DNA of 47,170 nt from Chrysophaeum taylorii (taxonomy: Eukaryota > Sar > Pelagophyceae > Pelagomonadales > Pelagomonadaceae): contig JAQMWT010000152.1 in the NCBI GenBank assembly GCA_029834535.1, forward strand, positions 1-47,170, in the 5' to 3' direction. Every line of letters starts with the position of its first letter. The first letter of the stretch is position 1. The position numbers were made by a program, and so were the translations under genes. Below the pieces are notes generated by a model, which searched no databases, was not told the origin of the DNA, and saw only the letters and a program-made list of their open reading frames with translations. Below, piece by piece: positions 761-47,170 of the stretch.

Positions 761-809
761 CATGCGATAACGAATGTCCTCGCAAGTAGCATCAGTGATC
801 TGCTTTTGG

Positions 810-1097: not shown

Positions 1098-1347
1098 TCC
1101 CGGCGACTTTCTGGTTTGTAACCCAATTCAGGATCGAAGTTGGCGAGTCGCATCGCCCATCGAGCCAACTGCCCAGACGAGTGCTTCGCCTTTCGTAAAA
1201 ACGTCAAGTTGCGATGATCCGTTTGGCGATCGTCTTGTGACCTTCAATATAAGAGCGGAAATGCTAAAGAGAAAGAATAGCCGCCAGTAGCTCTAGCCGG
1301 CGAGGCTCATAGTTCCGCATCTCTTTCGGCACAGCTCGGCTCCAATA

Positions 1348-1895: not shown

Positions 1896-2063
1896 TCCTT
1901 ACATCCATGTGGACAAATCGCTAGCCATCTGCTTACAAGAAAGAGCTCCTGCTGTTTTTACTCCCAGAGGCAAGCGCAAGAAACCGGGCTCCAAGTGGAC
2001 TAACCATCGTAACGGCGTCCTGAGCGGCGGCGTCAAACGTAGGTTATGATAACCCATCGAATA

Positions 2064-3125
2064 TCAATGCACGTCCGCCAACGGCGCATGGCAAGAAAAG
2101 CCGCCATCATCTTGACGAATATTCGGCCAACTGTCATTGACCAGCTGATCATTGAGCTGACGCAAGTCAACTGCAGCACGAAAAGCATTCGACGTCCCGG
2201 CCTCTGCTCCCTTCTTAGGCAGCATCAGTACAGGGAATCCCCACGGAGAGTTCGCCGGTCGGATGACTCCATCGCGACACCACTCGGTGATCTGCTTTCT
2301 GAGACACTCGAGCTTTGCTGGCGTCAACCTATAAGGCGTCATCTTGATCGGTCGTGGGTTTGCGTCTTTAAATCGTAGAGAAACCGGTGGCGAGTCCACG
2401 GGTCTCATAATCGGATCAAAAAAGGCCCACGCGTATTGCACGCAGTGGCTCAACATCATCTTCGCATCCTCATCCAGATGCGGGTTGTCGGGAATTCCCA
2501 GTTCTCGAACAACCTTTTCGACTTCTTCCTTCGTCGGAGTTACGACTTTCATCGCCTCATTGTCCTTGACGTGCTCCGGAGTCTGCGGTAACGGTACACC
2601 GCCCGCGTCGCGCGGCGCATCCTTCCATGGCACATCGCACTTTTTTTCGTATTTGAACCTCACCTCAGGGTGGCTCTTATTGATCCTTTCACCTTTGACG
2701 CGCACATTCGGCTCGCTCCTCACTTTCGGCTCCTGTCCAGGTTCAGGATCCGGCGGAACGTCCACTTTTTTCGATTGTCGGGGGGGCCCAGCAGAAAAAG
2801 CATGAGCCGTCCCCGGCGCATCTGTTGGAAGCGGAAGCATAGGGACTTCTGGCGGTTCCCATTTAGTGGGATCCTGGAGATCATCTTTTGACACCCACTT
2901 AACGACACGAGTACGCGTATTTAACAGCGGAATCTGCACGTGACGAAGGGTGGTGTTGGTAATTCGCAAATACTGCTCGAAGGATCGATCTGTTGGGCTC
3001 AACGCGGTCGGCATGTCTTCGCCACTTTGGCGGAAACCTCTGGTCACGGAGTTGTGCGGATCGACTGCTAAAATCGCAAGAGTATCTGGAGGGACGACAG
3101 ACGCTAAATGTTTGAACGAACTGTC
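2064..3125 (-). pseudogene. Methyltransferase motif X, spacer and RT fingers/palm of the gypsy-like polyprotein
   Basis: This frame opens just after a TAA near 3125 and overlaps the end of the methyltransferase frame by about 20 nt, offset by -1. Its first residues, 'HLASVVPPDTLAILAVD', look like C5-methyltransferase motif X (the GNxVxPxxA helix), so the methyltransferase appears to continue into this frame. A hydrophilic spacer rich in Pro, Lys and Glu follows. Then comes RT: 'MTPYRLTPAKLECL', 'GVIRPANSPWGFPVLMLPKK' and 'RAAVDLRQLND' match gypsy RT blocks 1-2. The frame stops at 2064, before the FVDD box found in another frame at 1895. What precedes the RT is inference; the RT itself is clear. 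Confidence 0.8.
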
Positions 3126-5812: not shown

Positions 5813-5878
5813 AGCGGCATCGGCAACATCATCGGAGACTCGGGCGGGGCGCGCCGTCGGGTAAAAAAGAACTCCCGA

Positions 5879-9668: not shown

Positions 9669-9689
9669 GAGATAGGCTCCGCCTTACGG

Positions 9690-10555: not shown

Positions 10556-10569
10556 AGGAGGGGTTTACG

Positions 10570-12530: not shown

Positions 12531-12591
12531 CAAAATTGAGCTGGCTGCGGTGAGCTGGAATCACCCCAGCGCGGCGTGCGATATCAAGTTC

Positions 12592-12909: not shown

Positions 12910-12923
12910 CCAAATTTCTTTTT

Positions 12924-28978: not shown

Positions 28979-31423
28979 TCATGAAGTGAGGTAAAGAGCG
29001 CGAAGCCGGAGGAAGGAAGGAGCTTCCGTACTGCGGGTGAAAATGTCGCTAAGGTTGTGAAGGCGGGGTATGTGTTTGAGATCAATGATGTGGTTGCGAT
29101 GATATTCGGCGGTACTGTAAAAGCGAACGTCAATATGGCGGGTGCGCCGTGTGAGACATTGGAGACGAACTTGGGTGACGGTGGTGCTATTATCAACATA
29201 CATTGGGACCGTGTGACGAGGGAGATCAAAGTCATCAAAAAGTTTGAGAAGCCAAGAGAGCAACGAGCAAGTAAGTACTGCGAGCGGGAGCAGTAGGCTA
29301 TCATAGAGCCCGCAAGGAGAAAGCAAAAACCAGTTGCAGAGTGGCGGTCATCAGGGTCGTCGGCCCAGCTGGAGTCGGAAGAACCACAGAGATGAAGGGT
29401 AGAATCGCGACCAAGAATAAGGGCAAGATCCTGAGTACCGTTGAGATAACGCAGAGTGTGGGATAAAGCGTGCCAGTGGGGTTTATCAGGATTGTGGGGA
29501 AAACGCGCACACTGATTGACGGACCAAGTGATATCAGGGCGAGTCATGATGGAGATGAAGAGGACACAGCCAACAATGCGGCGAAAAGGGATGCGTGCCA
29601 TGAAGATGTGATCTGGCGAGACGGAGGACCACGGTAGAATTGAGCACGAGCTTGTAATGGCAAGTGTCACCAGATCCGCGGACGAAGCCACAATCATTGA
29701 GAAGGAAGCGTTCCAAATAAAGCCGCCAATTGCGACAAGCTTGTTTGCAACCATACCAAGAGCGACGGAGCTTGTAAACGATTTTGGAACCATCGGTGGG
29801 TTGGCGAGGAGCATAGCCTTCGGGTGGCCAGACATAGATGTCTTCGTCAATGGGAGCTTGAATAAAGGCGGAGCTGACATCCAACTTGTGCAAATCCCAG
29901 TCATGAACAGCGACAAAGGTTAGAAAGAAACGGATCGTGACGATGTTGGCAACCGGTGAGTAGGTGTCATGATAATCAATGCCGTGAACCTGGGTGTAAC
30001 CGCGGACGACAAGGCGAACCTTGTACGATTTGAAGCGGCCAGAGTCATACTTCTTGCGGAGGATCCACTTGAGGGTACAAATGTTGCCAGAAAAAGTCTC
30101 AGGGAGGCGAATCACATCCCAACAACCAATTTGACCAAGAGAGCTGTATTCTTTAGCGATGGCCTGCAACCAGCCAGGACGCTCAGGATTGGTCGGAGCT
30201 AAAGCTTCACGTAAATGGGTGGAAGTGATAGTAGTTTCGTCAAGGTCTGAATACTGGGACATTTCTTCGGAAGCAGAGTAATAAACCTGTGAATGAGGAT
30301 CAACAATAGTGTTAGCTAAACAAAGGGGAAGGAAGACATAATGAACTAACAAACGAAAGCTAACAGAAGAGACATACAAAGAGTTACAGGGGGAAACAGA
30401 AGCGACAGAGGAAACAGAATGGCCCGTATCGACATCAGAATGGCCCGTATCAACATTGGAATGGCCCGTATCAACATTGTGACAGGAAGAAACAGAATGG
30501 CCCGTAATGAAGTTTGTTGGTTGTTGTAACGCGCGTTGGTCGACTTTGCGCGGTCGGCCCCGTTTGGCACGACGTAATGGTGCACGTTTCGTATTGGCCG
30601 GTAACAGTGTAGGCAGTGACGTTTCTGGGGTGATCAGTCCCGATAAGGCCGGCTCCGGAGCATCAAAAACAGAAGATATTGGGGATACGGCCGAAGATAA
30701 ACGAGGGTCGTAATAAAACAAGTCAGGAAAACGAGAGTCCACTAGAGACGGAGGAAGGGTTTGAGTGGACAGTGACTTACGTAGAGCGAAATTTTCGTCA
30801 AAAACAACATCAATCGAGGTGTGGATGACAGGACCTGTGGGGCGTTGAAGCAATATGCGATATCCAGGGCCTGCAGAGGGATACCCAATGAAGATACCGG
30901 TTATAGCTTTGGTAGGCCATTTGTCGCCAGTAAGAATTGCAGCAGGACAGCCCCAAACACGAAGAAAATCGACACGCGGGAGTGTTTCATGTAGCATTTC
31001 ATATGGCGTCATATATCCAGGATTAGAGGCATTTGGCATACGCTCAGAAATGAAGTCAGCCGTTTCCATGGCCCAACGCCAAAAATCAGGTGGACGCGAG
31101 CTTCGCTCGTCATACTCGAATAGACTGCGGTAGAAGTTGGCGACAGTGGCAAAACAGTTGTGGCACGTAAGAACGTTGCAGATAGCTTGCAGATAGCGTC
31201 GCAGTGGCACGTAAGAACATTGCAGATAGCGTCGCGGGTGCTGAGCACGGAATTCACGTCGATAGCAAAACCGAATTTTAAAGGTCAGAAAAGGCGGCGA
31301 AAAAGTGCGTGAAGGAGAACCACAAATCACACAGCAAAGAAGCGTCTGTCCAGGATCCCGAAGATGAGCGATCCAACCACATAGGTAGCACGAAAACTGC
31401 GCACGCGAAAAATTGACAGGCAC
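28979..31423 (-). pseudogene. Small copia pol: integrase tail, RT, RNase H, frameshifted
   Basis: The main frame 29534-31423 carries the integrase C-terminus ('YMTPYEMLHETLPRVDFLRV', 'WGCPAAI', 'GIFIGYPSAGPGYRI'). RT follows: 'LGQIGCWDVIRLPETFSGNI', 'LKWILRKKYD', 'DYHDTYSPVANIVTIRFFLT', 'LHKLDVSSAFIQAPIDEDIY', 'RRSWYGCKQACRNW'. The YVDD box falls at a frameshift. RNase H is in two other frames (28933-29916 with 'CRSQYLLARC', 'WADDPDDRHSATGF'; 28979-29326 with 'MYVDNSTTVTQVR' and 'RHIDVRFY'). The integrase zinc finger and DDE core are absent, replaced by a short direct repeat around 31140-31250. Confidence 0.85.
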
Positions 31424-31489
31424 AGCTTAGTTGTGGCAGGTGAAATGCGCGATGGAACGTGATTCGCTGGTTTTACCAAAGCCGACAAG

Positions 31490-31680
31490 CACAACGAGGA
31501 GTGGATCAACGAATAGCTGAAAATGCACAACGGGGAGTGGAGCAACGAATAGGCGAAATACAGAACGAGGAGGGGAGCAACGACGAGGTGAAAAGACAGA
31601 ACGAGGAGAGGAGCAACGACGAGGGGAAAATACAGAACGAGGGGTGGAGCAACGAATAGCGGAAAATACAGAACGAGGCA
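31490..31680. repeat. Tandem repeat of about 33-36 bp inside the small copia element
   Basis: Five to six units of GGAGCAACGAATAGCG/GAAAATACAGAACGAG with variation (ACGAGGTGAAAAGACAG, ACGAATAGGCGAAATAC). It lies between the gag fragment and pol and probably marks the internal deletion site. Confidence 0.75.
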
Positions 31681-31979
31681 CCTGTGCAATGGGAGCTAAA
31701 AACAAAAAAACGAGGGGCTTCCGTGGGATGGGGTTGTTGATATGCTTGCATCAGCTTGGAAGAGTCTGGTGGCTGACGACGCGGCGGATAGCGCGGCGGA
31801 AGTAGTTGTGCATGCCATCGAAATTGGTTGTTGTTGAACTTCTCAAGGGTACAACCACATTCATCGGTACGAAACGCGAGACGATAAAACAAAGCCAGTA
31901 AGGCTTGAAGCACGATGCACGTAGTCAAATGCGAGGACACACTCGAGGGTGCGTCGGATCAGGTACAATGCCGAGCAAC

Positions 31980-32430
31980 TTGAACTGCGGTGATTGGTAC
32001 AGTGCCGAGCAACTTGAACGCCGGTGATATGTACAATGCTGAGCAACTTGTATACTCCGATGATGATGAACTTGTTGAGGAAGTTCGCTACGCGATCCCC
32101 ACGGCCCATGTAGACATCGGTAGTGCGCTTGTAAAGTCGCGTGAAGTTCATATCGCGGTTTTCACGGATATCCGCACGATCAGTATCATGCATTGGTAGC
32201 GCCGTGAAGAGTGCACTGTACCAGCGTTGCTGCTTGAGACCAAATTCTTCTTCAGAGCAGCCAGAAGCGGAAATGCTAGTCCAAGTGTCAGTGGTCAAGA
32301 TAATGCGATCACCGGTGGAAATGATCATGTTTTCCAGGCGCCGGGTCCATTGGTGAAAAAGATGTCGCTCACCACTGAAAGCATCGAGTTTTTGCGAAAG
32401 CTTGCTATCCTTAATTTCGATCGAGGACAT
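31980..32430 (-). pseudogene. Gag N-terminus of the small copia element
   Basis: ATG at 32430. 'KLDAFSGERHLFHQWTRRLE' and 'WYSALFTALPMHD' match the 'L.G..NF..W......L' and 'a....I..al' helices of copia gag (UBN2-like). The frame loses similarity near 31980 and no zinc knuckle is found, so gag is truncated. Confidence 0.65.
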
Positions 32431-32540
32431 GATAAACGATAACGAACCGAACACGTAGCAATGAACTGAAGCCGAGGAGGAGTCGCCGTGAAGTCAAGCG
32501 CAGGTTCGATCGAAACGAACGAATGCTGCACCTGCTACCA

Positions 32541-32636
32541 TGTTGCGAATGGTATGAGGCGTTAGACTAGCGATAAGAGAAAGACGTAAGGATACTGGAT
32601 ACGTGGTGCAGGGGTAAGTGTCATAGCTTCCTCACA
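32541..32636 (-). repeat. 5' LTR of the small copia element
   Basis: 96-bp partner of 28712-28807, adjacent to the primer-binding site at 32531-32540 and to the CCGTC duplication at 32637-32641. Confidence 0.92.
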
Positions 32637-33475
32637 CCGTCTGTTAATAGGTCGATCCCAACTGATATAGAGGCAGGTGTCGACTTGTGAGCGTTCGAAC
32701 TCAGGTTGTCGAAGAAACGAGTCGAGCTTAATGTTCCACAACAAAGCTGACTGTTTGAGACCATAGAGAGCCTTGACGAGTCGGAGAGCTAGCTTGGACT
32801 CTGGGTGGTTCTTCTGTATCTGCTGGACAAGGTTTGCAAGACACGAGTCCCTCGAGGTAAGTCTATCCATACCGGGCGATCAAGTGCCGATTGGATGAAG
32901 GCCTGGGGAATGTCCGCGAGCGCGACGGGAAGCTTGTGCTTCACCGCGATGGCGAGCAGTAACCGGTTAGTGGCGAGCATCGCGGTCGGTAAAGATGTGG
33001 CATAAAAGTCGATGCCGACGCGTGCCAAGAAGCCTCGGGCAACTAGACGAGCTTTATAACGGTCTGGGGTGCCGTCAGCAAAATACTTGATCTTCAGCAC
33101 GAGTTTCGTCGAGCTAGACGAACGGTCTGGCGGTAAAGGTTCAAGCTTGAAGACGCCGTTGGAGCACAAGCCTTCAATTTCCTTGCGAATCGAAGCAATA
33201 TGCCTAAGCTTGTCTTCTTCGCTGAGTCCTTTGAGCTCGACAATCTTCTCGGGCTCATAGACATTGCCATCAGCAGTCACGAGTTGTAACACGACATGGT
33301 CGATGTGCTGCAAGTCATAGTCCATGACTTCCTGGAGAATGTCTTGATTCGGATCACTTTGACTTAGAAAGAGGTGTCCGAGTTCGCCAGAATCATGCAT
33401 GAAGGCGTGTCTGTGACGAGAGGCTGGGTGGTAGTGCTGGTGCGCTGAGATGTCCCATAAGAGAGAGGAACTCAT
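32562..33475 (-). pseudogene. RT N-terminal two thirds of copia-like element 1
   Basis: Frame 32789-33475 holds a linker and then RT: 'EEDKLRHIASIRKEIEGLCS', 'GVFKLEPLP', 'KLVLKIKYFADGTPDRYKAR', 'LVARGFLARVGIDFYATSLP', 'ALADIPQAFIQSALDRPVWI' (the first catalytic Asp in ADIPQAF). A second frame carries on with 'LVKALYGLKQSALLWNIKLD' and 'SQVDTCLYISWDRPINR'. The sequence is then cut by the small copia LTR at 32636. The remainder, with the VDD box, is at 28297-28711. Domain order (integrase before RT) is Ty1/copia. Confidence 0.88.
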
Positions 33476-33484
33476 ACAACAGAA

Positions 33485-35347
33485 CTATTGGTTCCATTGA
33501 CGCGCATCGTACTCTGCCGGTGACAATTCGTCATGGCATACATGGTTCTCGAGAACAGAATTGTCGTTGTCCAGGTGGTCGACCAAGACAGGCGAATGGT
33601 GCGGCTTCCGTGGGAAGTCAACGTACAAGAGTTCTGCGTCGGTTTCTCTCTGCATATCCAGTGCAGTGCCGCCCATGATACCATTGTCTTGAGTGGTATT
33701 TGCGAGGAAGCATCCTGTCGGGACATCATCTGGCGGCTTAGCGTCCCTTCTAATGTTGAGATCAGATGCGAAGCTGGCGGCTTGGCCCTGGTGCAGAGCG
33801 CTGACACTGATGAGAAACATCAATGTGCTGGACATGTTGGCTGTGGCGCGAGCCGTGGGTTGCTCCTGCTGGTATTTCCAGTTGCGACCATACTCTGATG
33901 CGATGATGCGTCTGGTGAAAAGTTGTCCATCGTCGACGCGTTTTGCGATATAGAGCTGATCTTTGGGAAGGCGTAATCCGCGCTCGTCCTTAAGATCAGC
34001 CTTGAGTTTGTCACTCTGGTTGCGATGCTCGAGGACTGGAGTAAAACCTGAATCGTCGAGAACAACCTCTAGGCGATCCTTTCGCTTGGGCATCGGAATG
34101 CTACCATCCGGCGGAGGTGGCCGGTTGAGGAACGAAAAATCCTGTTCAGGTGTCTCGTCGCTGACGGGACTTGGATCAGTAGCAGAGGCTTGATCTGGTT
34201 CTTTATTCTTGTCTTCATCATCGGGTTCGTCATCCTGGTTGTTATCATGAGTCTCGCCCTCATTTTGCGATTCCTGTCTAATTTCCGGCATTGGCTGCTC
34301 GCTTATAGCTGGGAGCGGGTCCTCTTGCCGTGCCTCTGCTGGGATCTGTGCCTGTGCTTTGATCCGTTCGATTTCCTTGTTGCGATTGACTGACATGTCC
34401 GCATCAACGTGGAAGTCGTTCGAGGTGACGATTTTTCCATATCGCCCTTGATGTACAAGCAGGATAGAGCTGTGAACATCACGGATAAATCGGTCCGTGC
34501 CGGGGAGGTTCGGGAGATAGTTTTTACTGTGGAAATAAGTGGCGGAGACGCTGGAGGGCTCCAGTTTGTGACTTTGAGGATAGACAAAGGTGACAGGTTC
34601 GCCAAAGGGGAGGAGCTTCAAGAGTGGTGCCGTGGGTGACATGATGCGTCGGGGAACGGTGCAGGTCATGTTAGTGCGCGAGGGCAGTCCATGAGAGCGC
34701 TGATTGTCTGCTTGGGTCTTATGCAGTAGAGCAAACGGGTGGTAATACTCGGCGCCAATAGGCTTTCCTTCGATGCGGACGCTGCGCAGGTTAAGAAGGC
34801 GAACGACAGTGCCTCGAGTATTTTCTTTGATGATGTTTTCCGCGAAGTTCCGCTGGTGTAGGTGGCGACCAATGATTTGAAACTGGATACCGAGTTGCAC
34901 CTTGAGCGGGTGGAAAGCTTCGGATCGGAATGTGGAAAAGGCATCATGTGAGATGATTTTCACACTTACATCGAATTCGACCTTAATCACATTGGCCACG
35001 TAGAGGATGCCAGCCAGCACGTCCTGCGCGTCCAGTTTCCTCAGGAAGTATACCCATTTGGGTGCCGAAATAACACGCACGAAGTGCATGATGTATCGGA
35101 ATCCGCCATAGCATTTGCTGATGCTTGGGTAGGACACATCCATGTGGAGATGTTGGCCAGGGGCGTAAGCCAGTTCATCCTGTGACCATGAAGTGTTCTT
35201 GTGGCTGAAGCTGACATGCGGTTGGCAGCGCTTGCATTCGCTGCAGTCTTGCAGATACCGATCATCACCTGGGCGGAGATTCGTTACATTAGCGGCAATT
35301 GTGCGGCGAAGAATCTCGGGTTCATGACACAGTACGTGTTTGGTCAA
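33485..35347 (-). CDS. Integrase of copia-like element 1, 5'-truncated
   Basis: A 620-residue open frame. It starts within the HHCC finger ('CHEPEILRRTIAANVTNLRP', 'QDCSECKRCQ'). The catalytic core follows: 'GQHLHMDVSYPSISKCYGGF' (first Asp), 'VKIISHDAFSTFRSEAF' (second Asp) and 'HQRNFAENIIKENTRGTV' (Glu). After the core comes a long acidic linker of about 250 residues rich in Asp, Glu, Pro and Gln, leading to RT in the next frame. Sequence upstream of residue 1 is lost at a head-to-head junction with the plus-strand element near 35340. Whether this family carried a methyltransferase upstream therefore cannot be seen here. Confidence 0.82.
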   Translation of the reverse strand: MTKHVLCHEPEILRRTIAANVTNLRPGDDRYLQDCSECKRCQPHVSFSHKNTSWSQDELAYAPGQHLHMDVSYPSISKCYGGFRYIMHFVRVISAPKWVYFLRKLDAQDVLAGILYVANVIKVEFDVSVKIISHDAFSTFRSEAFHPLKVQLGIQFQIIGRHLHQRNFAENIIKENTRGTVVRLLNLRSVRIEGKPIGAEYYHPFALLHKTQADNQRSHGLPSRTNMTCTVPRRIMSPTAPLLKLLPFGEPVTFVYPQSHKLEPSSVSATYFHSKNYLPNLPGTDRFIRDVHSSILLVHQGRYGKIVTSNDFHVDADMSVNRNKEIERIKAQAQIPAEARQEDPLPAISEQPMPEIRQESQNEGETHDNNQDDEPDDEDKNKEPDQASATDPSPVSDETPEQDFSFLNRPPPPDGSIPMPKRKDRLEVVLDDSGFTPVLEHRNQSDKLKADLKDERGLRLPKDQLYIAKRVDDGQLFTRRIIASEYGRNWKYQQEQPTARATANMSSTLMFLISVSALHQGQAASFASDLNIRRDAKPPDDVPTGCFLANTTQDNGIMGGTALDMQRETDAELLYVDFPRKPHHSPVLVDHLDNDNSVLENHVCHDELSPAEYDARQWNQ

Positions 35348-35884
35348 AGCTCAACACATGCCTGTTATGCAACAATGCTTAAACTGTATAACGAGTACAA
35401 GTTGCCGCTAATAACTACGCCAGGATATGCTGACACATGTGCTTCTCAACATGTAATTAACTTTAAACGTTATGCTGATCCTATCCACATCGTAAAGCTA
35501 CCCGAGTCCTTATCACCTGCTATCCAGACTGCTACGGATACGCAGAGAATCCCACATGCTATGATTATAAGGACCGTCATTCCCGCTCTCCCGAAGCATC
35601 CAAATGTAGGATATGTAAAGCTAGACGTTGCGCTTTTCCTACCCAAGCAAAAGCGCGTAAAATGGAACTTCGCTCACTACAGTTCAGACTATGTGCTTAT
35701 AATGAACAACGCGAAATGCTCAAACTATATTCCACCCTCATGGTACGCGCAATTTACGTCCCATGGCTCAAAACCATCTCGGAGTCAATGCATTCGCAGC
35801 TGCCTTACATACGCAAGCATTTCCCACCTCCCGTATGATGCAAGGTTACCACACGTTGCTTCACACAGTAACTACGTCTCCTAG
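35330..35884 (+). pseudogene. Retropepsin-like protease of copia-like element 2
   Basis: 'GYADTCASQHV' with Asp at 35432 aligns to the 'xxDTGASxH' active site of copia proteases; the Gly is replaced by Cys (GGT to TGT would do it). 'HYSSDYVLIMNNAKCSNYIP' may be the second Ile-Leu-Gly region, also altered. The frame continues to a TAG at 35882-35884. An overlapping frame (35763-35954) carries the residues leading into methyltransferase motif I, so a frameshift precedes the methyltransferase. The upstream 40 residues of the open frame belong to the other element across the junction. The altered catalytic triad suggests an inactive enzyme or an unusual variant. Confidence 0.55.
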
Positions 35885-37755
35885 CTCACGAACACCTACT
35901 GTAACTCTACTACTCTGGGATGCCCACTCCCGCCTTCTTGGCTTGCGCTTCTAATGACTTGCAAATCAACATCAACGTTAAAGTTCTTGTTGAGAGCGAC
36001 GACAATCTCACGCACATGCTACGAAGACGTTTTGGTAATTCCATCGAAGTTTTCCCATCCCTACCCAAGTTTCTGACATATCTCCATCGAGCATCGGACG
36101 CTGAACGTGCACGATATTACACCGATATAGTGGAACTGACATCACCATGCACAAATCGCAACATAATCAATGGGAGATCCATTTCCACCTTCGAGCGTGA
36201 TATGGACGATTCCTCGTTTCCAAGTGCTCTAAGTGTACTTGAGCTTTTAAAGCCGCTTGTTCTTTTCATTGAAATGACACCACCACACTCCGCATCGTAT
36301 GAAGACCATATACGAGTTGCTAATCTCATCTTCTCAACGATGCACTATACGGTGGATATATGTGACCGATTTCCATGCTATCTGTGTGGAGATTATCAAG
36401 CCAGAGAAAGATGGATCCTCGTTGCACGCACATATAACACCGGCCATCTTGATCTGCTTTCCTGGCCTAACAAACGAGTTACTTCCTTTCTGGACATTGC
36501 AGACCACGATAATTCCATTAGTCGCAAGTTAATAGTCGACGAAACTTGGACGCTGGTCTTTCCCGACATACCATTCGTGTCCACACCTAAAACCTACAAT
36601 ATCTTTAGTCGTACAGGATCCGTGCGCTTAACTGTGACTGAGCTTGAAACCTTAACCATGCTGTTCCTTCGTCTGCACTCTAACAAAACAGTCGAACATC
36701 CCAGTCAAGATGAAATGGGGGGCATTTCTAACTTTCGCCTGGGATTCTTGACTAATTCAAGAAAACCACTTGCCTGCATGAGATCTCCTATTGAACTCAA
36801 AGCTTTTGTGCTCCTCTATAATATTATGGGACGTTTATTCCCTAAGTCTATCACATTACCTGTGTCCTTTCGTATTACAACTATCGAATCTAACCAACCA
36901 TCTCACAGGTTATTCTTGAATAAATCCTCTACTTCCTCCATCATTTACATCACCGGTGGAAGACACACAGGCGGAGACACAACAGTTTCTAACTCCTCTT
37001 CTAAATACCAGGCACATATAAATGCTTTTGGCGAAACCTATACCTTCCTAACACGTGATGCCGGAATCGATAAGGCTGCTTCTCTCAAACCTGTTACTGG
37101 TATTCTTTGGCTTTGCCAAGCATACCATCATAATAATGAAAATCAAGACGCGCGTCGTCTAGTACAAGCACTGGTTCCCTATACTTCTCCTGTATTTCAC
37201 GATTCTTTTGTCTTCTACCCCCAGGAAAATCGTCTCGAATTTATCGATAAAATGTTTTCTTTAAGTGACATGCATCTGTCCCAAAGCAGATACCTGGGCT
37301 TTATTACGTCACGCGATAGGAAGATGGGTGCCAAAGTTCATTCTATGTACACTCCTACTCCTACCATTCGTGGATTTGCTAATATGCTCGTGTACGATCC
37401 ACGACTCGATCGCATTCGACACTACTCAACTCGCGATTTGGCTCGCGCCAATAACTTCACAGCGCACCAAATCAATTTTCTTTTGTCTTTGTCCCCGGAC
37501 CTATGCTGTGACATAATCGTTAATGCTATTCCGGCTGGAACATATCACTTAATTTATAAACATTTGTGTCAGATTGTCTATGACTTGCGTAAATTAACGC
37601 TATCACCATCGTTTGACCCTGATCATGCTTCTCTAACCAAAAACTATAGGTCAACCTTCTTCACAAATATATTCCCAACAGACACATCCTCAATATTACA
37701 CCAGAGTTCCATTACAATGTTATACATCTCCAATAAAAAAACTCTCATGTTGTGA
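35880..37755 (+). CDS. C5 cytosine DNA methyltransferase domain of copia-like element 2
   Basis: Open frame of 611 residues from ATG 35920; the same frame runs back to a TAA at 35902. Motif I is split: 'TPTVTLLL' in the upstream frame and 'YYSGMPTPAFLACASND' in this one. Motif II is 'VKVLVESDD'. Motif IV is 'TDIVELTSPCTNRN' with catalytic Cys77 (36148-36150). Motif VI is 'KPLVLFIEMTPPH' (Glu118, EMT for ENV). Motif VIII is 'CGDYQARERWILVAR' with an exact QxRxR. A target-recognition region of about 300 residues follows, then 'TPTPTIRG' and 'RIRHYSTRDLARANNF' (motif IX) and 'IVNAIPAGTYHLIYKHL' (motif X, residues 534-550). All main catalytic and AdoMet-binding motifs are kept, so selection on the enzyme is likely to have been recent. 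It would methylate cytosine C5 using AdoMet; specificity is unknown. Confidence 0.85.
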
Positions 37756-39280
37756 TGATCTTGCTTCTAACCACGAACTTCCATCTTTTCATCTCGATTC
37801 AGTAGCTTATGTCTTCCTCTCTAACACCTCATCCGCAGATATATCATCTCTTTCTAAAGAAAGACAAATTCCTCTTATAACGCCAAGACATCTCCATGAG
37901 AAGCATGCGCCCTTCGATAAGAAAGTTCATGCCAGGGGCACCCTCGCATTTCGAGATGCGCAACAACGAGCTACCAATTTTCACAACATCCACCATTCTG
38001 GTGATTCTCAAGCTATAAAAGCTGTACAGGTTATTGCCAGTCCTGGACACCACCCATCTGACGTACCCTACCGTAAGTTCTGTGTGGATTGTACGATTCA
38101 TAAAAAACGCTTTCCTCATCCACATCACCTTACCAAGCAACCATCATTCGAACAAAAATTTCAACCTGGTGAAGCCTGGGCATGTGACGGTGGTTACGTA
38201 TCCGTTCTCTCGGAATGGGGATCCTTTCGACATATCATTGTTTTTAAGTGTCTCATTTCTAAATTTTTGTTAATGTACTTTTGTCGTAGCACTAACTCCA
38301 GCGAATTTTGTAACGCCCTTGAGTTTGTCCGCAATTATTGTTCTACTTATGTTCATGTACAACTCAAACAAATCTATTGTGATTCCTTTAAACCCTATTT
38401 ATCTCATCATGTTACAACCCCCTTCCGTGTGGAACATGGTATTAACATGTCCGCGTCCCCCCCTTACTTACATGTCTTTAATCATGAAGTAGAAGCCGCT
38501 GTTGGTCACATAGCCACGGCCGCGTCTACACGACTCCGGCATATGCTTAATGTATCCTATAAAGGTCACCCCCTAACAGACCCGGTACCACACTACCCGT
38601 GGGCTGTTATACATGCCACCCAATCGTATAATCTCCTCCCTAACGTTTCCCTCGAACGTAATTATAATAAAGTCCTAAGCCCCCAACAAGTTTTGTTAGA
38701 CCAATGTAATGTTCCCCAACAGGACTACCTCGAACCTTTTCGTTCTGTTCGTTATCTGCATTCGGAACCTAACGAATGTCATAAATATGAGCCTCGACGT
38801 CGTCCTTACATCTACTTATGTGGTGCTAATGTTATAAACCCTTTAATCACACCCCATGTTAATCATGTAGTCGATGTTGTCCTTAATCCTGAAAACGGCC
38901 AAGTCCGTGTTTCCTCTAAACTGACTTTTCCTCATCTTATTTCTAAATCTCCTCCTGATAATGAACAGCATCCACCTCCCGCACCTTCACCCGACATTCC
39001 CTTCTCTGTTCACAGCACCCCCAATGATGCGGCGCAGAGGGGGAATGTTGTGCCTACCGACACTGACCACGAGAGGGGGACTCCTTCTTCTCCTCTCAAT
39101 GCTCCCTCTCCCGTTCCCGCATGTGCTCCAGCTGCTTCTGCACCCGCTACTTCCGCCACCACACCTACATCTGAAGTGTCCTCCAACACTTTGCCACTTT
39201 TACCATCTTATCGGTCTCTCTATTCCCAGGATGTCCTACGTCTCACCCGTGGTCCTCATCACCCTCAACCTCGTCGCTAA
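37745..39280 (+). CDS. Integrase of copia-like element 2
   Basis: The frame is open from at least 37700, overlapping the methyltransferase end in the +1 frame, and continues to 39280. The HHCC finger is visible as 'NFHNIHHSGDSQAIKAVQ' plus 'KFCVDCTIHKKRF' (37970-38110). The DDE core has Asp in 'GEAWACDGGYVSV' (38186), Asp in 'LKQIYCDSFKPY' (38381) and Glu in 'VFNHEVEAAVG' (38486); the last two are 35 residues apart, the spacing of retroviral-type integrases. A Pro/Ser/Ala-rich linker follows and ends in a stop at 39280, after which the frame changes. The protein joins element cDNA to host DNA. Confidence 0.87.
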   Translation, partial: SCCDDLASNHELPSFHLDSVAYVFLSNTSSADISSLSKERQIPLITPRHLHEKHAPFDKKVHARGTLAFRDAQQRATNFHNIHHSGDSQAIKAVQVIASPGHHPSDVPYRKFCVDCTIHKKRFPHPHHLTKQPSFEQKFQPGEAWACDGGYVSVLSEWGSFRHIIVFKCLISKFLLMYFCRSTNSSEFCNALEFVRNYCSTYVHVQLKQIYCDSFKPYLSHHVTTPFRVEHGINMSASPPYLHVFNHEVEAAVGHIATAASTRLRHMLNVSYKGHPLTDPVPHYPWAVIHATQSYNLLPNVSLERNYNKVLSPQQVLLDQCNVPQQDYLEPFRSVRYLHSEPNECHKYEPRRRPYIYLCGANVINPLITPHVNHVVDVVLNPENGQVRVSSKLTFPHLISKSPPDNEQHPPPAPSPDIPFSVHSTPNDAAQRGNVVPTDTDHERGTPSSPLNAPSPVPACAPAASAPATSATTPTSEVSSNTLPLLPSYRSLYSQDVLRLTRGPHHPQPRR

Positions 39281-41811
39281 ACCAATCTCTAGGATGTTCT
39301 TGCTCGTATTGCCTCGCCTACTGTTGCCGCTTATAAACAAGCCGGTGGTACGCTTGCCGACTTCAAGTATGACCTCTCCAAGCAGTACATAACTTTCTGC
39401 GACCCCACCCTCCACTCCCTTCATCTTGCTCATGGCATCCACTGGACGGCTATACCTCCAGAGGGGGAATTTACACCATCACTTCATCACCATGTGCACC
39501 AAGCGCTTTCACAGTCCTCTTCAGTTATGTGTCATAAGTGCCATAGCCACCCATCGCCTGATGCTCCTCACATTCATTTCGGCGACGACGTCAACCTTGC
39601 AGACTTTCACCTTCCTCGAGCTCACGTTCATCTAATTTCTGAACATGCTCACGCCTTTCAAGTTCCTCCCGCTCAATATGTTTATGCTTTGTTCACACCC
39701 CACTCCATTTTGGATCATAATGACGCTTCTTATGGTGCCTCCGAGCCTCACCTCTCCGCCATCGAAGACTATATCACCGTGCAATCGCATTACATTGAGA
39801 CCCACCTTGGTGATGCTCCTCTACTAGTTGTTCAACTCGTCGAAGATCCCGATCACGCTCACACTCACGATAATGTCGCTTCTTGCGCAATTACTCATCT
39901 TACGACGACTCATGACCCCAGCACTGTTGGTTCGGACGAATACAAGATTCAAGCCAAAGATATCAAAATTGATGAATATGAGTTGAACTGCCTCAAAGGT
40001 CTATCAGACGCTGATCGCAAAGCATATGTCGCCGCCATCTCCAACGAGATTTTTGATATTGTTAAGTTTGGCTGCTTTAAACTAGCGCTGCCAATGGTCA
40101 ACTCAAAGCCAACTGACACCCGCCTCGTCCTATGTATAAAAACCAACGCTGCTGGTCAGTACATTAAACATAAAGCACGCACGTCTGGTCCTACGTGGCT
40201 TCTTAGCCTCGTTGGGCACCGATTTTTTCAACACATTCAGCCCTATGGCACAGCTTACTGGCATCCGTTATGTTCTGGCGCTAGCAGCTCATCTGCGGCT
40301 TCCCGTCTACCATGTCGACGTCCCTAACGCTTTTGTTCAAGCTCCCATCGACTCTCATGTCGATGTTAAACTGCCACAAGGTATTTACCTTCTCGATCCC
40401 GAAGATACTAAATATCAAGGTCGTCGTCTCCCAAAGCTACTTAAATCTCTCTATGGATTACGTCAGAGCCCCGCCCTTTGGAATCAAACCACAAACGGCT
40501 TCTTTTGTTCTTTAGGCTATACACGATTTCGAACAGTCACCTGCATTTACGCTAAAGTCCAAGCTGACGCTACATTTCTAATTTGCACGCTCCCAGTAGA
40601 CGACGTCGTCATTACTTGTACTTCGGAAACTCTACGTCGTGAATTCCAGCAAGCCCTGAAAAAGGAATACTCAGTCGACACCTTCGAGGAAGTCCATACT
40701 CTCTTAGGCATGCGCATAACGCGTACAACTGATGGTTGTATATCACTGGACTGTCAGGCTAAACTTGGATGCATTGTTCGAAGAGTACCCCATTTTAATG
40801 CAGTTACGTCCCACTTTCACACCGATGTCACCATCAACCACATATAAAACTGGAGAGCCATCTTCTGATATGGACAAGTTTATTCTTCATACCTTCTCCA
40901 CCCTACTCGGCAAGCTCACGTTTGTCCAATTGGCTTGTCGCCCTGATATATCCCAAAGTCATAGTCGTTGCTCTCGAGGAATGCATAATCCAGCATTTCT
41001 ACAAGTTCAAGTACTAACAGGAACGCTCCGCTACTTGCGCAAGCCCGAAAATCGCAATCTTCGACTCTGGTACTACTCTGGCTCTTCCGCTCTAATGGAC
41101 CATCTTCGACTTCTTATCGGTAATCGCACTGACATGGCCACCATGTTGGATTACACTAAAGAACAAGTCAATTCAGGTAATTTTGATCCATTGGTCGCGT
41201 TCGTTGATGCCGATAATGCACCCTCTTATGAACAAGACCGCAAGTCTACAACCGGTTACGCCATCTTTTTGTTTGGTTCTCTCATCACTTGGAAGTCTAA
41301 GTTACAGCCTATCACGGCTACTTCTACGCATGAGAGTGAACTTATCGCCCTTAATATGTGTGCCGATGATGTGGTCTGGTTACGCAAATTGTTAACGGAA
41401 ATGGCATTCGCTATAAATCCTCACTTCTATCTTCGCCAACCTTCAGGGAAAGACTTGCTACTAGATTATGATGCTCACGACAATCCCCTCCCATCGGACA
41501 TGTCGTTCATACGTAACAGTCCTATACTTGGAGACTCTGCCTCTGCTATTCATCTATCTAATAATCCCGACAGTGCGACTAAGGCCAAAGCTATCAGCAC
41601 ACGCTGGTTCCGTATTCGCGACTACGTACAGTTAAAACGTATACGTCTACATCATGTTTCCGGTACCCATAATATCGCCGATGGATTTACTAAACCCTGT
41701 GGAGCTCCGCTCTTCAGCAGATTTCGCACGTTACTTGGCTTACAACAGCTCATAGCTCAACAAGATGGTCAATCCTTACCCTTCACTATGTCCGAAATGA
41801 CTTTAAACTAA
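39281..41811 (+). pseudogene. RT and RNase H of copia-like element 2, three frames
   Basis: 39281-40327 holds the linker ('SPTVAAYKQAGGTLADFKYD', shared with element 3) and the RT start ('YELNCLKGLSDADRKAYVAA'). 40212-40847 holds RT: 'GTDFFNTFSPMAQLTGIRYV', 'VYHVDVPNAFVQAPIDSHVD', 'KSLYGLRQSPALWN', 'TLPVDDVVITCTS' (PVDD for YVDD) and 'HTLLGMRITRT'. 40732-41811 holds the connection and RNase H: 'FVQLACRPDISQSHSRCSRG', 'AFVDADNAPSYEQDRKSTTG', 'ATSTHESELIALNMCADDVV', 'LGDSASAIHLSNNPDS' and 'HNIADGFTKP'. RNase H acidic residues are retained. Two single frameshifts break an otherwise well-kept polyprotein. Confidence 0.9.
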
Positions 41812-41859
41812 CCCTCCTATGTAACCCGCTCTTACTTCAGCTGCCCTTCATTTCGAGTG

Positions 41860-42480
41860 TAAATCTTGAGATCCTTGTAGCAGCTTGGTCTTTGTTACAG
41901 TCCGTTGAAGATAAAACCTGTGTAGTCACCAATCCTGATGAGTTACTTAATGTGCTCATCGAACGCTTTGTTAACGATGTTTCTCATCAACTTGACACGG
42001 CTTCTTCCGAGACGGTACCGCCAATGCTTAACTTCTTTCGCCAACTTCCACCTGATCAACAAATGGCATTTAAAAACGTGTTAGTCCAAGTTGGCTACCC
42101 TTCCCAAATAATTGACACCTTCTCTGATAATACCTCTTCTGAAGATGTGTCACCAGCGCCGATCGATAATCCACACGCTGAACCAACGCCAGATCAAGCT
42201 AACGACAATATGGCACCAATCAAAAGAAGAGATTCGGTCTTTATCCTTACGTCTCACTAACACCGAACAGCAATTGATGGCACGAGAACATCAAATATCG
42301 CTTGCACTAACTTCTCTCACACAGATTGCAGAGCATTTAGCAAGCAGTGGTAAGTCACCTGGGAAACCATCCCGTCTCATCATGAACGTCTGGAAGTATT
42401 TTATTCCGGGAATGAAAAGATATGTTCCCTATATCCTCAGAACACGACAGGCGGCATCTAGAACTACACGAGAAAGGTAA
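41860..42480 (+). pseudogene. 3' accessory coiled-coil ORF of copia-like element 2
   Basis: Starts 60-80 bp after the RNase H stop. The first frame (41892-42260) has 'NPDELLNVLIERFVNDVSHQ' and 'QQMAFKNVLVQVGYPSQIID'. A second frame to 42480 has a coiled coil ('LTNTEQQLMAREHQISLALT') and the tail 'NVWKYFIPGMKRYVPYILRT'. The frames overlap with one shift near 42230. It is related by position and pattern to 25188-26042 and 42818-43306. No known domain. A third gene after RNase H is not part of standard copia elements. Confidence 0.5.
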
Positions 42481-42508
42481 AGTGTATAGTGCTACATACC
42501 TCGGGACG

Positions 42509-42660
42509 CGCTAGACCATGATGATGAGCGTAGGCACACATCAGAGGACTATTTGATTGTGTAGAAAAAAGAAAAAAGGGTAAGGAAGAGATCACGTTCT
42601 CAACGGCGGATAAGGGTAGAGGCAGCAGTTTCTCTGCACCCCTCGAGATGTCTTAAGCGG
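42509..42660 (-). repeat. Terminal region of copia-like element 3
   Basis: Counterpart of 24549-24700: CGCTAGACCATGATGATGAG, GGACTATTTGATT, AAGGAAGAGATCACGTTCTC and CTCTGCACCCCTCGAGATGT in the same order. Junction with the 3' end of element 2 lies just to its left. Confidence 0.7.
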
Positions 42661-42817
42661 GTGCGACTGTAGAGCATCTCTTGAGAAAGTGATGATGAAG
42701 AAAAAGGAGTACAGTCTTGATGGTCAGAGGTCACATACGAAGCATCAAGGTATATGGGTCTTAGGACTTGGACTTGGACTTGGTGGAGCTGAGAGTCGAT
42801 TTGACCCTTTTGAACCA

Positions 42818-44011
42818 TTAATAAAACACAGAACAACAGACAGGTGTGGTAGGATTATCAATATCGTCAGCTGCTGTAAGGTGGTGAACACCAATAGCTG
42901 AATGATGTGGTGCCAAGAGAAGGGTGAGTGCAAGTAGAGCATTCATTATGGATGGCGCAGAGTGATAGTTGAAAGGTGTCCAGTTGGTTTTCAACAAAGG
43001 TTGGACTTGGCGAACGAAGATAGAAGAGTCTTCAGATTCATGAGAGCGGACGGAATGCTTTGAAGCATGAGAGCAACTTGTCACGTAGATGAAGGAGGTG
43101 ATCGTCCGGGGAGGAGTGGTTGGTAGCATGTTGATCATAGCGGTGAGTGTTAAGCGAGACAACAGCTCTGTGATCTTGTACAGTGTATAAGTAACACGTG
43201 GTGTTGGCTGTAGGAGGAAGAGCCGGTTCTCAGGGGAGGTGATTGAAGCAATGGCAGCCTCAATATATAGTTGAAGAGTTTCCTGGAGTTGGTCGACTTG
43301 TTGCACAAAGTCGGAATCAGCAAGCGAAGCAGAAGGCGTAGGTAACGATGGCGAAGTATCTCAGAGTAGCGTCTAGCGTGGAGTGTAGTAGTTTAACGAC
43401 GTTTCGGTCAACGTTAAAAAGGGGTGCAGGAAGCCTTAATTCTGCCTGAACATAAGTGTGGCCGAACATTACATCAGGTGATAGCGGTTCTGTATCATCA
43501 GAGGATGATGCGTAGTTGTTAGATGTTTACACGCGATCGAGCAACAGTAGTAATCAAATGCTGAATGGATGGCTTGTATAGCCTGAGCTGTGCGACTCTG
43601 TGTTCGAACACGAGTCACAAGTAAACTGATCGGTGTTGTGATAATGGGGATGTGACCATTCTTCTTATGGTCGTCCGTGTTGAGGTGACTCGGCACTTCA
43701 GTGGGGAGTTCACGAGGTGTTTGTGCCTTGGAACTGCACGTGGTCGAGACTAGGAAAGTCGGTTGTCCACGATCGTTGAGGCACTGCGTCAAAGAGAAGC
43801 GACAAAATGAAACGTTCGCGTTTGGGGCATCTGTAGCAGCCAATAGACGCAATAGCAGGAGCAGCTTCCCAAAGTATAGTAATGGGTAGCGCATGGATAT
43901 GAATGTGGTCAGGTCTACAAACAATGAAAAGTCAGTAGACTCATAGGTCAGTGCGAGTTCCACTCGCATAAGAAGAGAGAAATGGGGTGACAGGGACACG
44001 GAAGTTCTCAA
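42818..44011 (-). pseudogene. 3' ORFs of copia-like element 3
   Basis: The first frame (43469-44011) has a hydrophobic stretch preceded by Arg ('RYPLLYFGKLLLLLRLLAAT') that could serve as signal peptide or membrane anchor, then Cys residues. The second (42818-43306) opens with a coiled coil ('QQVDQLQETLQLYIEAAIAS') and 'TYTLYKITELLSRLTLTAMI', homologous to the tail of the element 1 accessory ORF. About 160 bp without an open frame separates them. The hydrophobic segment leaves an envelope-like role open, but no glycoprotein features are recognised. Confidence 0.4.
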
Positions 44012-44027
44012 GGAGAGAATTTCTCGC

Positions 44028-46913
44028 TTAAGGCAGCATAGTCAATACTGAGGCCGTCCTGGAACGTCGTCGGCAGGTAGGTGAGATATGCGCTGGTGTC
44101 GGTGCAAACGCAGCAGCCAGTGTGGTTGCAGTTGTAGCAGTCATGGTTCGTTGCTTTTGCGACAACCTGGGGAAAGTTCGGCCGTGGAGAGCGAAAGGAC
44201 TGTCCTTCAAACGACTAGTGAGATGCCGCGGCCACGGGAGTGTCAAGAAAAGACATGAACAACACTCGCCCGCGTACAAAAAAATTGTGGTAAAAGAAGG
44301 TAAGGCCAGGGCTAGTTTAACGACGTTGCGGTCACTAGAGTTAGGCATCTTCAATCCTGTAAAGGATTGTCGTGAGAGCATGATGCATACCGAGTAGAGA
44401 ACGAAAGTGGAGAACTCAGCAAGTGGCTTTGTAAAACCATCCGCCACGTTCAGCTTGCCGGGAACATGATGGACTCGTATTTTCTGTAGCGATATGTACT
44501 CACGGATTTTAAACCATCTGGTCGACAGTGCCTTGGATCGAGAGGACCCATCTGGGTTATTAGAGGTGTGAACAGCGGCAGCATTGTCAGACAAGAGAGG
44601 TAGGCTTCTGATGAAGCGCATATCAGCAATTGGGTTGTCATTGTCATCGAAGTCAACAGGGTCAGCGGTGTTCTCACCATTAGCATTGTTGACGTAGAAG
44701 GTGGGGTTGACGACAAAGGAGAGTTCCAACAGCAGCTTGCGTAGCCAAACAGCTTCATCAGCACAAATACTGAGGGCAATCAACTCAGCTTCGTGAGTTG
44801 AGCAGGAGACAATCGGTTGAAGTTTGCTTTTCCAACCAATAAGGCAGTTGAAAAGATAGAAGACAAACCCGGTGGTAGATTTCCTATCTTCCTGTGCTAA
44901 GGAAGGGGCATTGTCAGCGTCGACCATATGGCTACTAAGGGATCGGACTGTCCAGTAGATACATCCTGCGGTTGGAAGTCGACCACAGTGGATAGATCAA
45001 TTCGATTAGCGGAGACAGTGCGAAGGTGAGCTTCAATGGCATTGCCTTTAGGTGGAACCAGAGGCGAAGTGAGCGGTTTTCCGGCTTCTTGAGGTAGCGA
45101 AGCAAATGCTCTAGCATTTGGACGTGAACATACGTGGGTGCATGCATACCACGCGAACATCTGCCCAAGGCTTGCGAGAAGTCAGGTCTGCAGGCAACTT
45201 GCATGAACACCAGCTTGCCAAGGAGGGTGGCAAAGTGCGAATTGATGTACAACTCTGTTTCAGTGCTGGGAGTGCCATCTTTATACTTGAAGGACGATGA
45301 CATAGGATATTTAAGCGGGGTCAGTTGCTGCAAGACTGGGTGATCAGCGAAGAGTTCATCCAGCTTGGCTTGCACATCCAGAGAAATGGAACCGTCAGAT
45401 GTGCGACACACACGCATGCCTAGGAGGGTATGGACAGGTTCAAACTGCTCTACAGCATACCGTTTGTAGGGCATCCTGTAATTCAGTACGAAGAGGGTCG
45501 TCATTGGACACAATAACAATGTCGTCTACAGACAGACTGCATACGACGAACTTAGCATGTGCGGATACTCGAGCATAGGCAAGAGTCCGAATGCAGGCGT
45601 TTGTAGCCAAGGCTACGGAAGAAGCCGTCTATCTCTTTGTTCCAAAGGGATGGTGATTGCCGAAGTCCATAAAGTGACTTCAGCAGTTTCGGTAGACGTC
45701 GGCCCTTGTACTTAGCGTCATCGGGGTCGATAAGCGATGCCGTCTGGTAACTGAACATAGACATTGGCATCGATGTCAGACTGAACGAAGGCGTTCGGGA
45801 CGTCTGCATGGTAGACAGGCAATTGCTTGTATGCTGCAATAGCTAGTAGTACCCGGATTGCGGTCATGGTGGCCATGGGGCTGAAGGTACCAAAGAAATC
45901 GGCGCCAAGAGATGCTAGGAAGCCACGTAGTAAGAGGCGAGCCTTGTGCTTAACGTATTTGCCTGCAGAGTCTGTTTTAATCTTCAGCACCATCTTGCTG
46001 TCAATAGGACGAGAGACACCGTCGGGTAAGGAAAGTTTGAAGCAGCCAAAGCGGATAATGTCGTGGAGTTCCTTGGCGATGGCCTTTAGGCGTGCCTGTT
46101 TTCAGGCGACAAACCGTGGAGGCACTTAAGTTTATATTCGTCAATGGAAACGTCCGCTTCTTGGACCTTATATTCGTCAGGACCAACAATGGCTGGTGAA
46201 TTATAGTTTAGCGACGTTGCGGTCGAGGCAGTGTGCACAACTTCGGGATAAGCGGAAACAGCGTTAGTAGGAGTAGTAGGGGCAGATTCCAGTTGGATAT
46301 GGATAGTAGGGTCGGTACGTAAGACCTGGGTGATAAACTCTGTAGAGACCAGAAGGTATTCCTCCAAGTCAGCCAGAGATGCAGAAGTAGCGCCAAACTC
46401 GGATGAGTTGTGATCAATAAAGCTGGTCGGCGCCAGGTACGTAAGTGCATATTTTAAGGAAGAAGTGCCGAAGGCAGCAGCGTGTTCGGTGAACGCAGAA
46501 AAAGGGGGCTGAGGAATAGGGCACGCAGGTGAACCATCAGCAGTTAAAAGGGTTGCAGCTGGGATGCTGGATGTGCACTTGGCGTGGGCGAAGTAACCAT
46601 CGACGAGCGGGTAGCGGGCAAGTAAGTCAGTGCGCAACGGGAGAAGAAGACGAGCTAACAACGCATGTTCCCCCTCTGAGCAGATAGCAGACCGGAGGAT
46701 ACCACCACAGAGATGAAGTGCGGAGAGGGCGGGAGACTTGAACGTACGAAAGTGGTGGCGAAGATCCCAGCGGAAATCGGCGAGCTTGCCACCAGCGGCT
46801 TTGTAAGCACCAATAGTAGACGCTTGTAACCGGGCTCGGATAGTTTTCATAGAAGTGGCCTTGCGGGTGTTAGGCTGTTTGGAACCTGGGACAAGTGAGG
46901 TCATCTTGTGCAA
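44028..46913 (-). pseudogene. Linker, RT and RNase H of copia-like element 3, frameshifted
   Basis: 46086-46913 is the integrase-RT linker. 45718-45993 has 'MVLKIKTDSAGKYVKHKARL', 'GADFFGTFSPMATMTAIRVL' and 'VYHADVPNAFVQSDIDANVY'. 45552-45839 has 'RRLPKLLKSLYGLRQSPSLW'. SVDDIVIVS, the catalytic box, is near 45515-45540. 44935-45519 has 'VHTLLGMRVCRT' and 'KLVFMQVACRPDFSQALGRC'. RNase H is in 44028-44927: 'MVDADNAPSLAQEDRKSTTG', 'SCSTHEAELIALSICADEAV', 'LLSDNAAAVHTSNNPDGSSR', 'LNVADGFTKP'. Four or more frame changes. Residues are close to element 2 throughout, showing common family descent. Confidence 0.88.
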
Positions 46914-47170
46914 AGGTCTTTGTAAGAAGGAAGCAAGGGCGGCGGTGACATAGAGCCAGATTCGTCGGCGAGAGCGTCAGAAGAGGAGAAGAGGCAGGAG
47001 TAGGGGACGAAGAAGCTGAAGGAGGTGGGAAGTGCCCCCTCTGATGATGAGGAGTCCCTGTCCCCCTCTGAATGACATGGTCTTGGATAGTGGTGTGGGT
47101 GTGAGCGAGAAGGCGCGGGAGGAGCGTGAGGCGGAGGAGCTAGTTCAGGATCAGGGTAGGATGCTGCAAC
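46914..47170 (-). other. Linker region upstream of the element 3 RT, at the window edge
   Basis: Pro/Ser-rich low-complexity coding-type sequence on the minus strand, corresponding to the Pro/Ser/Ala-rich integrase tail at 38950-39230 of element 2. CCCCCTCTGA phrases at 47034 and 47061 echo the GAGGGGGA phrases at 39046 and 39071 in element 2. Confidence 0.4.

Follow-up and report, generated by a model that had tools for sequence, protein, structure and literature searches.

A methyltransferase frame between protease and integrase

The stretch of DNA analysed here, referred to as the window, comprises 47,170 nucleotides of contig JAQMWT010000152.1 from the pelagophyte Chrysophaeum taylorii (assembly GCA_029834535.1). 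It contains a 5'-truncated Ty1/copia element on the forward strand (35321..42326), hereafter family A, in which an open frame resembling a C5 cytosine methyltransferase (MTase) is found (35905..37755, 616 amino acids stop to stop). A preliminary description, made from the sequence alone, had placed this frame between the protease and the integrase, and the layout of the element agrees with it. Upstream lies DTCAS (35432..35446), recognised by motif and position as resembling a protease active site; downstream lie the integrase frame (37637..39277) and the Copia reverse transcriptase (RT; 40140..40844). The RT matched the Pfam family RVT_2 (E 5.5e-35), while the integrase matched rve with an E-value of 0.0056, under the Pfam cut-off, and shows an HHCC-like zinc region by eye. 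An RNase H region (40720..41808) was recognised by eye in the translation and gave no Pfam RNase H match, and frame 35192-35881 gave no Pfam protease match. A UGA stop closes the Gag-protease frame (35836..35838, forward strand as all features above). Assignment to the Ty1/copia class follows from the presence of RVT_2 and the position of the integrase upstream of the RT, rve matches being under the Pfam cut-off. The order of family A is (gag-protease)-UGA-MTase-integrase-RT.

In the usual numbering of C5 MTase motifs, the domain consists of a catalytic core, a region of about 300 residues between motifs VIII and IX, and motifs IX and X. Each motif string quoted in the preliminary description occurs once in the translation, in the order given there. 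Motif IV (TSPC, 36139..36150) carries the presumed catalytic cysteine and motif VI (EMT, 36271..36279) the presumed catalytic glutamate; they are followed by motif VIII (QARERWILVA, 36397..36426), TPTPTIRG ahead of motif IX (37351..37374), motif IX itself (YSTRDLAR, 37423-37446, by position in the translation) and motif X (NAIPAGT, 37522..37542). Conservation was counted in the 30 best-scoring copies from a genome search with the MTase frame. The cysteine of motif IV and the whole of motif X are present in 30/30, and the preceding proline and the patterns of motif VI, motif VIII and TPTPTIRG in 29/30 each; the glutamate is also invariant in a 10-row alignment. Motif I reads YSGMP in the window copy, and the remaining 29 copies have CSGMS. 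Family A has its motifs I, IV (Pro-Cys), VI (Glu), VIII (Arg), IX and X in order. Subfamily A2, which is 48% identical to A, has TPPC at motif IV (L060 and L061), and the Pro-Cys, the glutamate and the second arginine of motif VIII are also kept in A2 and in a second copia family, B.

A DNA-methyltransferase profile matched 22 of 25 family rows at E ≤ 1, the best at 1.8e-4, in siblings and not in the window copy. The A and B profiles are homologous from motif IV to motif X, and the B MTase is recognised by Pfam: it scored 35.5 bits against PF00145, and three of three rows of a gypsy family, G, scored 25.9-34.9 bits, above the gathering score of 22 bits. A structural model of the family A core (m49e1a7e4859e) retrieved C5 MTases in 50/50 of the VIA matches listed, at 10-16% identity, and in 47/50 of the Foldseek matches listed. 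By VIA Z, DNMT1, DIM2, MET1 and HhaI ranked above DNMT2; DNMT2 structures are among the matches listed by both methods, one at Foldseek rank 2. Sequence searches of the PDB retrieved nothing with A and one chance match with the A profile (E 1.4), bacterial C5 MTases at E 0.015-0.065 alongside chance matches with B, and C5 MTases at E 0.12-0.66 with G. A full-length fold of the family A MTase was discarded as too poor for use (predicted local distance difference test, pLDDT, 34.9). Ordered catalytic residues, sibling profile matches, profile-profile homology to B and the structural core model together support the identification of 35905-37755 as a C5 MTase domain within a Ty1/copia element, as first proposed.

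Copies, selection and related elements

The assembly of the window (70.8 Mb, 697 contigs) was searched for further copies. The MTase frame matched at least 77 stretches, 46 of the 77 without internal stop by hand count; this is a lower bound, 71 of 1538 candidates having been scored. With L061 as query, at least 81 stretches of subfamily A2 were found (77 of 1582 candidates scored), and with family B at least 87 (78 of 797 scored). P0001, an MMETSP transcript product with 22 member sequences, found at least 69 places, some absent from the results of the MTase frame (69 of 1046 candidates scored). A, A2 and B thus each have at least dozens of copies; G also occurs, and the MTase lies downstream of the protease in every group. 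Matches with equal or near-equal scores sit at near-equal positions on contigs C10 and C297. These two contigs are probably unmerged haplotypes whose duplicates inflate the copy counts, so these are counts of places and not of insertions. Given the many copies, the MTase frame is a shared component of the element, and the one-off capture of a host gene or exon, which the preliminary description had named as the alternative, is ruled out by this survey.

The ratio of nonsynonymous to synonymous substitution rates (dN/dS, NG86), proposed earlier as a check, indicates purifying selection within family A, with a median of 0.11 over 253 pairs (23 of 25 rows; the most diverged, L054 and L061, were left out). 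Segments were then compared in five pairs among four copies, which include the diverged L054 and L055 and are not independent. The catalytic core gave 0.026-0.065 at dS 0.9-1.9 (5 pairs), the VIII-IX region 0.068-0.092 (4 unsaturated pairs), motifs IX-X 0.044-0.068 (5 pairs), the part from motif X to the integrase 0.084-0.121 (5 pairs), the integrase 0.144 and 0.213 (2 unsaturated pairs) and the RT 0.034 (a single pair). Among MTase and integrase segments the core was lowest in 4/5 pairs; in the fifth, motifs IX-X were slightly lower. Constraint on the MTase core is about equal to that on the polymerase, and the low dN/dS of the core shows that the MTase is a selected part of the family A element. 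The window copy itself is slightly damaged, its length differing a little from that of a sibling ahead of motif I and at the motif itself; against the nearest of the siblings compared its dN/dS is 0.41, as one would expect where selection has relaxed.

The window also holds the RT and integrase side of a family B copia element on the minus strand (29537..35322), truncated at 35322. The missing side encodes the Pfam-recognised MTase in L057, and L057 and L058 show a gag-like frame, a protease-like DGGAS, the MTase (regions L057:3330-6698 and L058:4786-7818) and the integrase. One B copy without internal stop, on contig C96, has an open frame of 1952 amino acids. In the window, tandem repeats spaced about 36 bases apart form a short array at 31490-31701. 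B and A are 34-44% identical in pieces of the RT, 26% in the integrase and about 16% in the MTase core. The divergence of RT and integrase alongside the low identity of the MTase would fit vertical descent of both families from one MTase-bearing copia. No relative of the B MTase was found at E ≤ 0.001 among 8000 candidates scored.

For the A MTase one relative was found at E ≤ 0.001 among the candidates scored, namely P0001; four scans of viral contigs, each based on two to six short patterns, gave no relatives. P0001 is 29% identical over 90% of the MTase frame and at most 33% identical to any listed match in this genome. It keeps motif VIII and the C-terminal half and is without a clear motif I. 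Because its homology continues beyond the MTase into the region preceding the integrase, another organism seems to have this element.

The gypsy element of family G occupies window positions 1..6415 on the minus strand, where frame 3107-5878 holds a protease-like part, seen by eye, and an MTase with FSGAGGSTLGL and ASPPC (PF00145 E 0.0035, under the cut-off). L059 matches window positions 44-861 and 1015-3919 at 74-78% and contains RVT_1, RT_RNaseH, Integrase_H2C2 and rve. In family G generally, the MTase with FSGAGGSTLGL, ASPPC, EQE and VRLLV is followed by RVT_1, RNase H, H2C2 and rve. Its MTase loci (L044, L045, L047-L052, L059) have the MTase between the protease-like part and the RT, and two subgroups, L045-like and L049/L050-like, are about 36% identical. 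Neither the A nor the B profile matched G significantly in hhalign, and gypsy elements may thus have captured their MTase independently.

The 5' boundary of the window's family A element, at 35321, is the onset of homology to L053 and L056; here the copy adjoins the truncated family B element (35321/35322), and gag and a 5' long terminal repeat (LTR) were not seen. Homology to L054 runs out at 41816, and 41817-42326 were given to family A on position alone. No LTR pair was found in window positions 30000-47170 or in loci L053-L056, which are too short. On the right, a repeat common to L055 and L057 begins at 42327, followed by a third copia element on the minus strand (42327..47170). Its RT is 50-71% identical to that of A in four pieces, and its protease-MTase side, if any, lies beyond the contig. 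The repeat terminus at 42327, beside A, recurs at L057:8928 directly after family B sequence and is perhaps the LTR end of the third copia. Elsewhere in the window, a G+C island (59-63%) spans about 9000-13000, the remaining 2-kb steps having 42-56%; an open reading frame inside it (10523-11641) has no Pfam match.

The conserved UGA, CpG content and the role of the enzyme

The stop between the protease and MTase frames was followed in 32 distinct copies (the 30 best-scoring plus L054 and L055), and TGA is present at the junction in 31 of them. The exception, L002, has its frame shifted by a small length change. A pattern search found 28 loci (26 distinct copies), all with TGA; the six missed copies were then read individually, and five have TGA in place. 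In siblings the UGA lies upstream in the same frame as the MTase, and no methionine occurs between the UGA and motif I in the printed sibling translations. Most UGA-bearing copies are closely related; L054, with dS of 1.8 and 2.3 to two others, is the telling case. UGA-C is a leaky stop context, and the base after the UGA is C in 30 copies and U in the window copy. As the UGA is conserved between the two frames, programmed UGA-C readthrough is suggested as the simplest reading, in which case the MTase would come first among the domains of the readthrough product. L055 has the MTase, the integrase and the beginning of the RT in one frame of 1464 amino acids (rve 778-874, SH3_retrovirus 962-996 and RVT_2 from 1419, each under the cut-off), and the next frame matches RVT_2 with E 5e-32. 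The junction differs in the A2 copy L060, where the frames overlap (one damaged copy), and in the B copy L057, where protease and MTase are in one frame; for this reason readthrough may be confined to A.

Two host-type PF00145 genes were found, L031 (DNMT2-like by reading, E 4e-19) and L032 (E 8e-18). The relatives of L032 include proteins with MTase and SNF2, the DNMT5 layout; no SNF2 was found in the examined portion of L032. In a 27-row tree, L032 and the protein P0002 join a record of the pelagophyte Aureococcus anophagefferens, named retinol reductase, with support 100/99. A dinoflagellate spliced-leader pattern gave no match with up to 2 mismatches. The tree and this result suggest, without proving it, a pelagophyte-like ochrophyte and not a dinoflagellate as host. 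In the MTase region of the 30 copies CpG observed/expected was 0.93-1.04, and four longer A loci gave 0.89-0.97; the values were 0.95-1.29 for G stretches and 1.26 and 1.46 for two host-gene loci rich in G+C. TpG was 1.1-1.2 in A versus 0.8-0.9 in host loci. That CpG is lower in A than in host genes may be an effect of G+C content, and the CpG content is no clear support for or against self-methylation.

What is observed is a Ty1/copia Pol frame whose first domain has the sequence features and the predicted fold of a C5 MTase. Purifying selection on this domain is strong, and the domain occurs in deep lineages (A, A2, B and the MMETSP homologue). We consider that this is best explained, with a probability of roughly 0.6, by a particle MTase that would be made by readthrough and would methylate the cDNA. 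Most ribosomes would probably halt at the UGA and yield Gag-protease, and occasional low-level readthrough would probably yield Gag-protease-MTase-integrase-RT-RNase H, from which the protease is likely to free the MTase within the virus-like particle. There the enzyme might methylate cytosines of the new cDNA, or of the RNA-DNA hybrid, before integration, and the new copy might integrate bearing the host's own chromatin mark. Such a mark could be a shield from a defence against naked foreign DNA, or it could confer a tolerated, low-harm state maintainable by the host DNMT5.

Several results weigh against this explanation. On the side of expression, there is no RNA structure after the UGA (4/4 folds no better than the shuffle mean), and the 22 codons from the UGA to motif I are weakly constrained (dN/dS 0.23-0.45, 4 unsaturated pairs). 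On the side of identity, the usual glycines of motif I are missing in family A, where this motif is only partly canonical, and motifs I-II fall outside the A-B profile alignment. The preliminary description had named the lack of any profile or structural match as grounds for refutation; this did not come about, as there is a structural match, although the window frame has no Pfam match at all. A2 has none either, the core of L053 reached only 10.9 bits (E 0.3) against PF00145, and NCBIfam dcm matches neither A nor A2. The core model itself was built from an alignment of 10 rows, 4 of them from family B, with pLDDT < 50 over 88-108, from the motif IV cysteine onward, and the TM-scores it reached in Foldseek, 0.43-0.57 when normalised by query length, are moderate. 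Family A shows no clear CpG depletion, with observed/expected about 1.0; the enzyme may act at some other sequence context, leave a transient mark or work on RNA. Finally, P0001 lacks the Pro-Cys at motif IV, which means that not every member of the wider family has the catalytic step, and by its sequence P0001 is a candidate for a natural dead MTase in a retroelement.

The last two points would fit a former C5 MTase that is now a dead enzyme, retained in Pol to bind nucleic acids or for a structural role, in packaging, annealing or choice of integration site, as would the degenerate motif I of both A and B and the alignment of P0001 over 90% of the frame without Pro-Cys or a clear motif I. 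We regard this as unlikely: the best-scoring A copies keep the cysteine (30/30) and motifs VI and VIII (29/30 each), the core has the lowest dN/dS of the MTase and integrase segments in 4/5 pairs, and the Pro-Cys, Glu and second Arg of motif VIII persist in A2 and B. An active enzyme could instead work on RNA, the tRNA primer or genomic RNA, in the manner of DNMT2. The template inside the particle is RNA and a DNMT2 structure stands at Foldseek rank 2, but other C5 MTases, HhaI and DNMT1 among them, outrank DNMT2 in Z, and DNMT2 is compact, unlike the A enzyme with its long stretch between motifs VIII and IX. This makes RNA an improbable substrate, even though PMC5890265 raises RNA methylation for the LINE enzymes.

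With three MTase-bearing LTR groups (A/A2, B and G) in one genome, competition or self-limitation is plausible, and the enzyme might act in trans on host or rival DNA and restrain competitors or the element itself. The place downstream of the protease in Pol suggests work in the particle, and we give action in trans little credence. A chance resemblance of motifs or the single capture of a host gene, for which the lack of a Pfam match to the window frame might speak, has almost no probability left. The copies, profile-profile homology, profile matches and structure matches rule out chance, and the copy survey and selection, with the same profile and structure matches, refute a single capture. 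Returning to the particle MTase, a fuller reading would join it to an ancient C5 MTase, acquired before the A/A2/B/MMETSP split and standard in copia Pol of this algal lineage, with a gypsy MTase gained too, regular cDNA methylation, UGA readthrough in A, an enzyme class too diverged for domain databases and a VIII-IX region perhaps directed at a non-CpG target; we put this combination forward tentatively, at somewhat less than even odds.

Comparison with known systems

Retrotransposons that carry the enzyme normally used for their silencing are a paradox with few published cases. According to PMC5890265, DNMTs occur in the Symbiodinium LINE and DIRS elements and in gypsy elements of Klebsormidium, and Symbiodinium Copia elements are without any DNMT domain. 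KnitGypsy-Dnmt3 of Klebsormidium nitens is likewise an LTR retrotransposon with a C5 MTase in the Pol polyprotein and Ka/Ks < 0.2, and it is closest in kind to family G. It belongs to Ty3/gypsy and the DNMT3 clade, whereas A and B are copia elements with the MTase between protease and integrase, and the family A MTase, unlike that of KnitGypsy-Dnmt3, is too diverged for Pfam. SymbioDIRS-Dnmt3 and SymbioLINE-Dnmt also have many copies and a DNMT under purifying selection like that of the RT, placed in Pol in SymbioDIRS and mostly in an open reading frame upstream of the RT in SymbioLINE; their backbones are DIRS and LINE, in contrast to the copia backbone of A and B. CpG depletion was reported for SymbioLINE but not for SymbioDIRS, and none is clear in A. 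Family A fits this group in having a DNMT in the coding region, many copies and Ka/Ks < 0.2 (median 0.11, 253 pairs); A and B fall outside its LINE, DIRS and gypsy backbones, and G is gypsy.

Compared with the Dcm-type enzymes HhaI and HaeIII and with DNMT1 and DNMT2, family A shares the predicted fold of motifs I-VIII, the Cys, Glu and Arg, and motifs IX and X; it differs in having a reduced glycine loop, in the roughly 300 residues that separate motif VIII from IX, and in its fusion to integrase-RT. The Ectocarpus Sola1 element with ParB-MTase (PMC12477816) is likewise an algal transposon whose DNA methyltransferase is believed to mark the transposon itself, but it is a DNA transposon and its ParB-MTase is a separate opposite-strand gene of N4mC or N6mA type. 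The available parts of PMC9998398, PMC3145265 and PMC11453091 describe no copia C5 MTase. PMC12344493 places DNMT3 members in 'LTR Copia and DIRS', citing PMC5890265, where the streptophyte element is Gypsy; the authors either wrote Copia in error for Gypsy or refer to a copia case that has not been described. Apart from this ambiguous statement, no described copia element with a C5 MTase was found among the papers listed in literature searches, as judged by titles, opening lines of abstracts and selected passages, with subscription journals mostly absent.

The earlier suggestion of another lineage or subclass held as far as it was tested, with MTases in two copia families and in gypsy elements and a host DNMT5-like gene that groups with the Aureococcus record. 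Several MTase-bearing LTR groups, deep subfamilies and long selection on the core coexist in one genome, so what an element gains from methylating can be tested across elements, subfamilies and a Cys-less relative. Retroelement MTases can escape Pfam and may therefore be undercounted. Set beside the accounts above, these elements are of a known kind, the capture of DNMTs by LINE, DIRS and gypsy retrotransposons, which is extended here to copia elements.
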